Source: Ignavibacteria bacterium
GTDB lineage: Bacteria; Bacteroidota; Ignavibacteria; Ignavibacteriales; Melioribacteraceae
NCBI GenBank assembly: GCA_009773205.1
Contig: WPAE01000001.1
Coordinates: forward strand, 1 to 32,746
Direction: 5' to 3'
DNA length: 32,746 nt
A program made the position numbers and the translations under genes. The notes under the pieces were generated by a model, which was given only the letters and a program-made list of their open reading frames with translations, was not told the origin of the DNA and did not search any database. Positions 13,595 through 14,107 of this stretch are shown here, piece after piece (the first letter of the stretch is position 1; each line of letters begins with the position of its first letter).

Positions 13595-13630
13595 ATAAAA
13601 AAGCCCTTCCGGTTTATCCGTGAAGGGCTT
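13595..13630 (-). terminator. Attenuator terminator A, upstream of metY
   Basis: On the minus strand AAGCCCTTC pairs with GAAGGGCTT (13622-13630 with 13601-13609), with a possible inner CGG/CCG, followed by TTTTTT then ATTATC. It lies 23 nt after the stop of leader peptide A and about 30 nt before the metY start. TCACGGA on its 5' side can instead pair with TCCGTGA inside leader A (13665-13671). Confidence 0.85.
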
Positions 13631-13653
13631 GAAGTTAAATCTATTATGAACGA

Positions 13654-13746
13654 TCAAGATTTATCACGGAAAGGGTAAAGCATAGCCATCATGCACATCA
13701 TACGCATTATGTTCTTTCCGTTTGATATTTCTAATTGTTTATTCAT
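13654..13746 (-). CDS. Methionine-rich leader peptide A of metY
   Basis: A 30-codon ORF on the minus strand, ATG at 13746, TGA at 13654-13656. Its centre reads NIMRMMCMMAMLYPF: eight of thirty residues are Met and one is Cys. After the MMCMM core come exactly ten residues. Codons for PFRD contain TCCGTGA, which can pair with the 5' side of the terminator downstream. If ribosomes stall on the Met/Cys codons, that segment is free to form an antiterminator; if they reach the stop, it is covered and the terminator forms. That is the logic of trp/his attenuation, here for methionine; it is inferred. The ribosome binding site is weak (AAAAGAAC). The peptide is clearly related to leader B. Confidence 0.75.
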   Translation of the reverse strand: MNKQLEISNGKNIMRMMCMMAMLYPFRDKS

Positions 13747-13766
13747 TTTGTTCTTTTAATAACTTT

Positions 13767-13836
13767 TGTCATTTCGAGCGAAGTCGAGAAATGAGAATCT
13801 CCCAACAATCACACTTCGACTCCGCTCAGTGTGACA
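13767..13836. repeat. 70-bp inverted-repeat element between the two attenuators
   Basis: The left arm TGTCATTTCGAGCGAAGTCGA and the right arm read in reverse complement (TGTCACACTGAGCGGAGTCGA, taken in two parts as TGTCACACTGAGCG and GAGTCGA) match at most positions. Ends are TGTCA and TGACA. This is a common type of dispersed intergenic palindrome in Bacteroidota-like genomes (general knowledge). A fragment of it appears at about 9365-9382. Confidence 0.6.
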
Positions 13837-13903
13837 TTATCAATCATCTCTTTATAACTATGGGCTTCTAAATGACAGATTACATTTTCAATATTTCATA
13901 TAA

Positions 13904-13938
13904 CAAAAAAGCCCTTCGAGATTTCTCAAGAAGGGCTT
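13904..13938 (-). terminator. Attenuator terminator B, after the outer leader peptide
   Basis: AAGCCCTTC (13930-13938, minus) pairs with GAAGGGCTT (13909-13917); inside, GAGA-AA-TCTC adds a second short stem. A run of T's (13904-13910) follows. The outer stem is identical in sequence to terminator A. Its 5' arm GCCCTTC can alternatively pair with GAAGGGC in codons 28-29 region of leader B (13973-13979). Confidence 0.87.
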
Positions 13939-13960
13939 AGTTTTAATTTTTTATGTGAAG

Positions 13961-14059
13961 TTATATTGTTTCGCCCTTCGTATTTAACGAAATCATCATG
14001 CACATCATATCAATTATGATGATTTTCCCATGGGCAATATTTATAACTGTGTTTTTCAT
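13961..14059 (-). CDS. Methionine-rich leader peptide B (outer, tandem copy)
   Basis: A 32-codon ORF, ATG at 14059, TAA at 13961-13963. Its centre is HGKIIIIDMMCMMISL, again followed by ten residues after MMCMM. Compared with leader A, the shared parts are an I-x-x-GK segment and MMCMM; the rest differs, so this is more than a recent copy. The stop-to-terminator distance is 22 nt (23 in A). ACG AAG GGC late in the ORF gives GAAGGGC, a perfect 7-bp partner for the terminator's 5' arm. A sigma70-like promoter ends about 20 nt before the ATG, so the leader begins almost at the transcript start, as in classical attenuators. A longer in-frame extension to 14215 exists but runs over the promoter and is less likely. 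Confidence 0.75.
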   Translation of the reverse strand: MKNTVINIAHGKIIIIDMMCMMISLNTKGETI

Positions 14060-14078
14060 TGTCTTAATTTCTGTTGCG

Positions 14079-14107
14079 AAGATAAGTTCTGAATAATGAG
14101 ATGTCAA
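14079..14107 (-). promoter_or_regulatory. Sigma70-like promoter of the metY leader
   Basis: On the minus strand TTGACA (14102-14107), a 17-bp spacer, then TATCTT (14079-14084). Predicted start of transcription is near 14072, about 13 nt before leader B. No equally good promoter is seen before leader A, so both attenuators are probably in series on one transcript. Confidence 0.65.

Follow-up and report, generated by a model that had tools for sequence, protein, structure and literature searches.

Predicted tandem Met/Cys leader-peptide attenuators upstream of metY in an Ignavibacteria genome, and their serial arrangement with the SAM-I riboswitch in relatives

Introduction

Methionine genes are textbook examples of control by riboswitches, T-boxes and repressors. 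The SAM-I riboswitch (S box, RF00162) binds SAM directly and does not require translation. It resembles the units reported here in preceding the same gene, metY, in many relatives and in being followed by an intrinsic terminator, but it is absent from the stretch of DNA analysed here and from the whole genome to which this stretch belongs. Leader-peptide attenuators of the trp, his, thr and ilv type (His_leader, RF00514, and others) share with the present units a short ORF with codons for the amino acid product, the mutually exclusive helices 1:2, 2:3 and 3:4, an intrinsic terminator and a biosynthetic gene downstream. Unlike them, the present units have Met and Cys as control residues, have segment 2 confined to the final 20 nt of the ORF in 45 of 51 units, stand in tandem or in series with SAM-I, and match no Rfam leader model at its cut-off.

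Sulfur amino acid genes of Actinobacteria are preceded by Cys leader peptides without a conserved terminator hairpin, and for the methionine operons of this group conserved upstream RNA structures were not observed (PMC1262725). In Rhodobacterales, the uORFC-8-2 motif before the cysteinyl-tRNA synthetase gene cysS comprises a cluster of Cys codons and a likely intrinsic terminator at its end (PMC8632094). Clusters of Cys codons are thus common to both systems and to the present units, but neither is described as Met-based or as preceding metY (PMC1262725, PMC8632094). For Streptomyces lividans, a predicted leader peptide, metL, with CMCRRMC near its end lies before metNIQ (PMC8079986). Like the present units it is a leader ORF with terminal Met and Cys before methionine genes, but it is presented for one genome, with a leaderless transcript, two Met past the start codon, no typical Rho-independent terminator, and a transporter rather than metY downstream (PMC8079986). 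Our searches of the open-access literature, beyond which an earlier mention may exist, returned no Met leader with a terminator and alternative helices, no leader-peptide attenuator in Ignavibacteria, and no serial combination of such an attenuator with a SAM riboswitch.

Results

The window, i.e. the whole stretch of 32,746 nt that was analysed and along which all coordinates are counted, belongs to a genome of 4.14 Mb in 476 contigs with a completeness rating of 99.95%. All units and genes described lie on its minus strand. The presumed regulated gene is metY, encoding O-acetylhomoserine (thiol)-lyase (12259..13566; TIGR01326, 675.7 bits against a cut-off of 495.1), whose product has its nearest matches in named Ignavibacteria, with 87% for Stygiobacter electus and 85% for Melioribacter sp.; the organism thus probably belongs in Melioribacteraceae or near this family. 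metY is co-directional with genes for aspartate kinase (10530..11939; TIGR00657, 341.7 bits against a cut-off of 208.7) and the homoserine O-acyltransferase MetX (9431..10528), which reached 455.9 bits with NF001209 (homoserine O-acetyltransferase MetX; cut-off 331) and 464 bits with TIGR01392, below the cut-off of 500 of that model.

The original prediction, made from the window, placed two small ORFs with a MMCMM core before metY, and both were recovered. Leader peptide B (MKNTVINIAHGKIIIIDMMCMMISLNTKGETI, 32 aa) is encoded at 13961..14059, with the ATG at 14059 and the stop ending at 13961, and has counterparts in relatives; its start was placed by reference to these relatives and to the promoter, whereas in the ORF listing it is contained in a longer frame of 84 aa with ATG 14215. 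Leader peptide A (MNKQLEISNGKNIMRMMCMMAMLYPFRDKS, 30 aa) is encoded at 13654..13746. The MMCMM control codons occupy 13994..14008 in B and 13687..13701 in A, and the two cores (core DNA ATGATGTGCATGATG) are the sole matches to ATGATGTGYATGATG in the 4.14-Mb genome (reversed-pattern control, 0). The finer layout also proved correct as first described: ten residues follow MMCMM in both leaders, the gap from stop to terminator is 22 and 23 nt, and a 9-bp stem, AAGCCCTTC/GAAGGGCTT, is common to both terminators. A generic terminator scan missed both because its loop limit is 8 nt and the loops here measure 12 nt.

Each leader contains the elements of an attenuator. Segment 2 of B, the putative antiterminator strand (GAAGGGC, 13973..13979), lies within the ORF shortly before the stop and is complementary to segment 3 (GCCCTTC, 13936-13930) of terminator B (AAGCCCTTCTTGAGAAATCTCGAAGGGCTT, then TTTTGTT; 13909..13938), the other arm of which is segment 4 (GAAGGGC, 13917-13911). 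Likewise, segment 2 of A (TCCGTGA, 13664..13670) pairs with segment 3 (TCACGGA, 13623-13617) of terminator A (AAGCCCTTCACGGATAAACCGGAAGGGCTT, then TTTTATT; 13601..13630). These two pairings, already proposed in the original prediction, are the best contiguous leader-terminator complements; among 200 shuffles, a fraction of 0.00 for B and 0.01 for A matched their duplex energy, and among 100 shuffles a fraction of 0.0 for B and 0.04 for A matched their contiguous stretch. A further element, absent from the original prediction, is a segment 1 located 5' of the core, which pairs with segment 2 in each leader (B: TTGCCC, 14032..14037, with GGGCGA; A: ACGGAAAG, 13714..13721, with CTTTCCGT) and completes the 1:2, 2:3, 3:4 plan. 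The equivalent of segment 1 of B in L010, L011 and L006 is TCGCCC. Together with the control-codon ORF, the terminator past the stop and the cognate biosynthetic gene downstream, the 2:3 and 1:2 pairings support the trp/his-type plan proposed for Met (and Cys): the three helices are alternatives to one another, the units are spaced alike, and each leader pairs specifically with its own terminator.

A candidate sigma-70-type promoter (14079..14107; TTGACA at 14107-14102, 17 nt, TATCTT at 14084-14079) had been proposed to start the unit. The site is present, but with 4 such sites in the region against 4.1 expected, their frequency does not exceed chance. Better support than the match in the window comes from a TTGACA box 5' of the first leader in L006, L010, L011 and L016. 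TTGACA-17-TATCTT may serve as the promoter.

Other features of the region were noted. Between the two attenuators, at 13765-13840, lie two adjacent palindromes (around TCATTTCGAGCGAAGTCGAGAAATGA and CACACTTCGACTCCGCTCAGTGTGAC), in place of which the close relative L006 has a few bases only; the first of them (TCATTTCGAGCGAAGTCGAGAAATGA side) has no second copy in the window genome at up to 2 mismatches. At 14742-16484 there are three minus-strand ORFs of 235, 164 and 172 aa; the two that were scanned, of 235 and 164 aa, gave no Pfam or NCBIfam match at E 0.001.

Next, metY loci of relatives were compared. A metY search covered 58 genomes, from which the best 30 loci were taken; because hardly any sequence precedes metY in L012, the comparison comprises 29 loci, among them the window (L009). 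According to leader scans and Rfam searches, every one of these 29 loci has a leader, a SAM-I riboswitch or both. Six have one or more leaders only (L009, L010, L011, L013, L016, L038), eleven have a leader plus SAM-I (L017, L018, L023, L024, L026, L029, L032-L036), and twelve have SAM-I without a leader (L014, L015, L019-L022, L025, L027, L028, L030, L031, L037). The conservation on which the original prediction had been staked, namely a Met-rich ORF with a terminator before metY in relatives, was therefore found at 17 of 29 loci, the window included. In all 11 mixed loci, out of the 17 that bear leaders, the leader is the upstream stage and SAM-I the downstream one. The window, in which as in its entire genome the SAM-I aptamer (RF00162) has no match, has a second leader instead.

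Among 80 named metY loci, of which two (L044, L060) have almost no upstream sequence and four (L064, L065, L108, L115) less than 500 nt, a leader was detected by script in 15 (L039-L043, L045, L048, L049, L054, L066, L069, L094, L111, L113, L117). All 15 are labelled as Ignavibacteria, Ignavibacteriales or Ignavibacteriae, Melioribacteraceae, Melioribacter, Stygiobacter or Bacteroidetes, and the script found none in the cyanobacterial, proteobacterial and acidobacterial loci among the 80. SAM-I was sought with Rfam in 40 of the 80 and found in 12 of 20 loci in one set and 16 of 20 in the other. The tallies of the 29-locus and 80-locus sets overlap, since several loci come from the same genomes. 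A tblastn search with metY against plasmids gave nothing of use.

By position, leader B corresponds to the first and leader A to the second leader of two-leader relatives (L006, L013, L016, L040, L041, L043, L045). Leader pairs were likewise seen in further genera of this family (G006, G021, G036, G040, G044, G123); the tandem is thus not limited to the genus of the window. A tandem of two Met/Cys leaders before metY was also present in L146 (1400-1782), from a distant family (f30) of the same class. In L041 the counterpart of the A pairing TCCGTGA/TCACGGA is ACCGTGA/TCACGGT, with one pair changed on both sides.

An exact search with ATGATGTGYATGATG was tried as a detector of such leaders and rejected: it matched 6 of 116 genomes, that of the window included, and one matching place (L008) had no metY-type leader by eye. 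As this pattern was too strict, the metY search and a pattern restricted to RNA architecture were used next. The latter, AAGGG-N20..50-AGCCCTT-N3..30-AAGGGCTTTT, leaves the peptide unspecified. It matched 22 places in 79 family genomes (17 with a match; reversed-pattern control, 0), 25 places in 391 class genomes (22 with a match; control, 1) and 31 places in 395 phylum genomes (28 with a match; control, 1); these three genome sets overlap and yield 49 distinct places. The pattern represents one sequence type and therefore misses units with other terminators, such that within the window it detects B and not A. At 40 of the 49 places an ORF ends that contains four or more Met/Cys within seven residues, whereas 200 shuffles of the 90 nt upstream gave 1.6 such places on average and never more than 6. 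At the 5-of-7 level, Met plus Cys was the top residue pair (34 places), followed by a pair with 14.

Thirty-four of the 40 Met/Cys places lie before metY and six before cysteine or sulfur-assimilation genes. In four of the latter (L120, L129, L132, L140), Cys-rich leaders around positions 1400-1580 share the antiterminator/terminator layout and precede an operon of PAPS reductase and CysD genes. Pfam identified the PAPS reductase domain in each of the four; CysD was recognised by model in L120 and by eye in L129, L132 and L140, and a model also recognised a DUF2061 protein in L120. The remaining two, from other families of the window's class, have Cys-rich leaders around 1500 (ACACCCACTC and PCPCACCC, respectively), before a cysteine synthase gene in L147 and, in L149, before a gene of the nitrite/sulfite reductase family whose exact type the models do not settle. 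Eight of the 49 places (L142, L143, L148, L151-L155) were rejected as Met/Cys leaders and appear to be chance matches. A ninth, L150, was rejected because its ORF is His-rich instead: at 1400-1570 an HHHHH ORF is followed by a terminator before hisZ, a unit that the same peptide-blind pattern retrieved and that, judged by its sequence, is likely a histidine attenuator.

Family f43, which is outside the class of the window, contributed 12 of the 49 places. A metY search of 58 genomes, with the best 30 loci taken, showed an upstream ORF with at least 5 Met/Cys in 7 residues, a criterion that demands no terminator, at 24 of 30 loci, extending the conservation beyond the class; the scan found no such ORF at the other 6. 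SAM-I was present in 20 of 20 loci put through Rfam, 16 of which are among the 24 with a leader, and the leader lies upstream of SAM-I in 16 of 16 of these. In two f43 loci (L159, L162) a gene for a CoA-binding protein stands between leader and metY (PF13380 tested in L159), and a CoA-binding-like gene is also located 5' of metY in Fodinibius salsisoli (L110, by eye), whose MetY is 79% identical to one f43 MetY. Based on MetY identity and the CoA-binding protein gene before metY, f43 is probably Balneolaceae or near.

Pairing was quantified in 51 leader-plus-terminator units, whose selection required a Met/Cys cluster. In 45 of 51, segment 2 is contained in the final 20 nt up to and including the stop codon, a stretch that would be masked by a ribosome terminating there; in six (L033, L035, the second unit of L040, L069, L120, L132) it extends past the stop. 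The gap from stop to terminator is 20-44 nt, with 21-27 nt in 37 of 51 units (scan range -2 to 45). Compared with shuffles, the 2:3 duplex energy had a mean z of -2.8 and was at or below the 5% level in 37 of 51 units. The 14 units that did not beat 95% of shuffles comprise a single unit of L003, a single unit of L127, the two units of L146, and L017, L018, L024, L026, L029, L033, L066, L069, L129 and L147.

In a swap test of 47 non-duplicate units, the true pairing was matched by 0 of 5000 permutations for 2:3 and 1:2 alike; these permutations mix leader types, and the statistics, here and in f43, ignore relatedness. The own-partner rank had a mean of 0.30 for 2:3 (best tenth, 16 of 47) and 0.25 for 1:2 (best tenth, 12 of 47). 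For 16 f43 units extracted separately, the corresponding values were 2 of 5000 for 2:3 and 0 of 5000 for 1:2, and the matched pairs differ by genome (CGGAGGGT/GCCCTCCG, CAGAGGGT/GCCCTCTG, CGAAGGGCT/AGCCCTTCG, ACCGGGGGAT/GTCCCTCGGT). The 1:2 helix had a z of -3.9 and -2.8 in the window units and a mean of -1.6 over the 47 units, and is weak or absent (z near 0 or above) in, for example, L026, the second units of L043 and L131, and L147.

Column covariation, a check suggested with the original prediction, was counted in two close alignments, A1 and A2, with 14 and 11 rows. In these, 2:3 gave no signal (204 of 500 and 283 of 500 shuffles equally high) because the columns hardly vary; for this helix it is thus the swap test that carries the point. 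For 1:2, which pairs in only 69.9% of cells, shuffles were as high in 5 of 500 cases for cells changed on both sides, 74 of 500 for pairs and 361 of 500 for pair types, and the support from covariation is moderate.

Folding of the window units as naked RNA gave 1:2 plus 3:4. With a stalled ribosome, and while the 3' arm of the terminator was absent from the transcript, the antiterminator formed with -11.6 to -14.2 kcal/mol (about -12 for B and -14 for A). With the ribosome at the stop, the alternative amounted to only -0.4 and -1.6 kcal/mol, compared with -16.0 (B) and -19.1 (A) for the terminator. At equilibrium, the terminator was favoured even with the ribosome stalled, so the switch must be kinetic; in trp attenuation, timing decides likewise.

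Discussion

We hold with high confidence that each of the two units is a trp-type ribosome-mediated transcription attenuator with Met, and one Cys, as control codons. Insofar as sequence and comparison can establish them, its ORFs, codons, terminators, three helices, recurrence and gene association are in place; translation, stalling, termination, read-through and the ligand response with its logic are what we infer from them. When charged tRNA-Met (and tRNA-Cys) is ample, the ribosome would reach the leader stop and mask segment 2, the 3:4 terminator would form, and transcription would end ahead of metY, aspartate kinase and metX. A shortage of charged tRNA would make the ribosome stall at MMCMM, allowing 2:3 to pair and RNA polymerase to continue. 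Without translation, 1:2 and 3:4 would form and leave the gene off. Two serial units would need two antitermination events, and the response should be sharper. In most leader-bearing relatives the second stage is the SAM-I riboswitch, which would result in a serial gate on tRNA charge and SAM.

The comparison brings two refinements to the earlier reading: Cys often shares the control role with Met (MCCCCMMM, MCMCCMC), and relatives usually combine the leader with a SAM-I riboswitch as its serial partner. More broadly, it is probable that metY in at least two classes of the phylum is under a two-stage serial RNA gate, an upstream leader attenuator responding to tRNA-Met/tRNA-Cys charging followed by a SAM-reading SAM-I riboswitch, that in lineages like that of the window a second leader replaces the riboswitch, and that a version with Cys codons acts on sulfate-assimilation and cysteine-synthesis genes.

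The frequent Cys codons bear on which amino acid is read. A real attenuator might respond mainly to cysteine, or to the sulfur amino acids jointly, with Met codons employed since Met and Cys pools co-vary. Both window cores contain Cys, as do the clusters of many relatives (MCCCCMMM, MCMCCMC), and leaders rich in Cys but built alike stand before genes for PAPS reductase, cysteine synthase and nitrite/sulfite reductase. Yet each window core combines four Met with a single Cys, Met occurs without Cys in the clusters of L010, L011 and L035 as well as in the second leaders of L006 and L013, and the product of metY makes the Met precursor. We regard a mainly cysteine-borne signal as unlikely.

That the ORFs recur in kind would also be expected of functional micropeptides, and Met/Cys-rich peptides can bind metals, in which case the terminators would merely close a separate small transcript. 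Against this, the residues beyond the cluster vary and the cluster itself drifts from MMCMM to CCCCMMM, while terminator pairing and stop-to-terminator distance are kept; moreover, all 40 Met/Cys units from the architecture-only search stand before metY or cysteine/sulfur genes. Functional micropeptides are thus, in our view, very improbable.

A slightly poorer candidate still is a riboswitch or T-box that has escaped recognition, with the ORFs incidental. It would fit the presence of SAM-I at the same gene in relatives. But SAM-I is absent from the entire genome, the leader region contains no match at the gathering score of any Rfam family (the window as a whole contains only two, both tRNAs), and a peptide-blind search retrieves Met/Cys ORFs that a riboswitch does not need. 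The 14 leader-region Rfam matches obtained with E up to 5 fall well short of the respective cut-offs and include no T-box; one to His_leader (22.3 bits, cut-off 49) was treated as a chance resemblance. A chance coincidence of Met-rich ORFs and terminators in an AT-rich intergenic region, to which the chance-level frequency of the sigma-70-like site and the 8 of 49 seemingly accidental matches might point, hardly merits consideration given 40 of 49 places against 1.6 expected, recurrence in two classes of the phylum and partner-specific pairing.

The leader attenuator is therefore retained as the reading of the metY units. Its mechanism is ordinary; the signal, the breadth and the partner are unusual. 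As to the organism, no protein with a PAPS reductase domain was found in the window genome (rated 99.95% complete), and the organism may depend on sulfide, which metY uses. If true, the proposed control would fill a gap among the amino acids read by leader peptides, and would show that attenuation operates in Ignavibacteria and in one more class of this phylum. It would also mean that a single gene naturally carries a sensor of tRNA charge in series with a sensor of SAM, so that simple mutations could separate the roles of Met and SAM. The use of a riboswitch or a second leader at the same stage across lineages would then represent a clean case of RNA sensor exchange.
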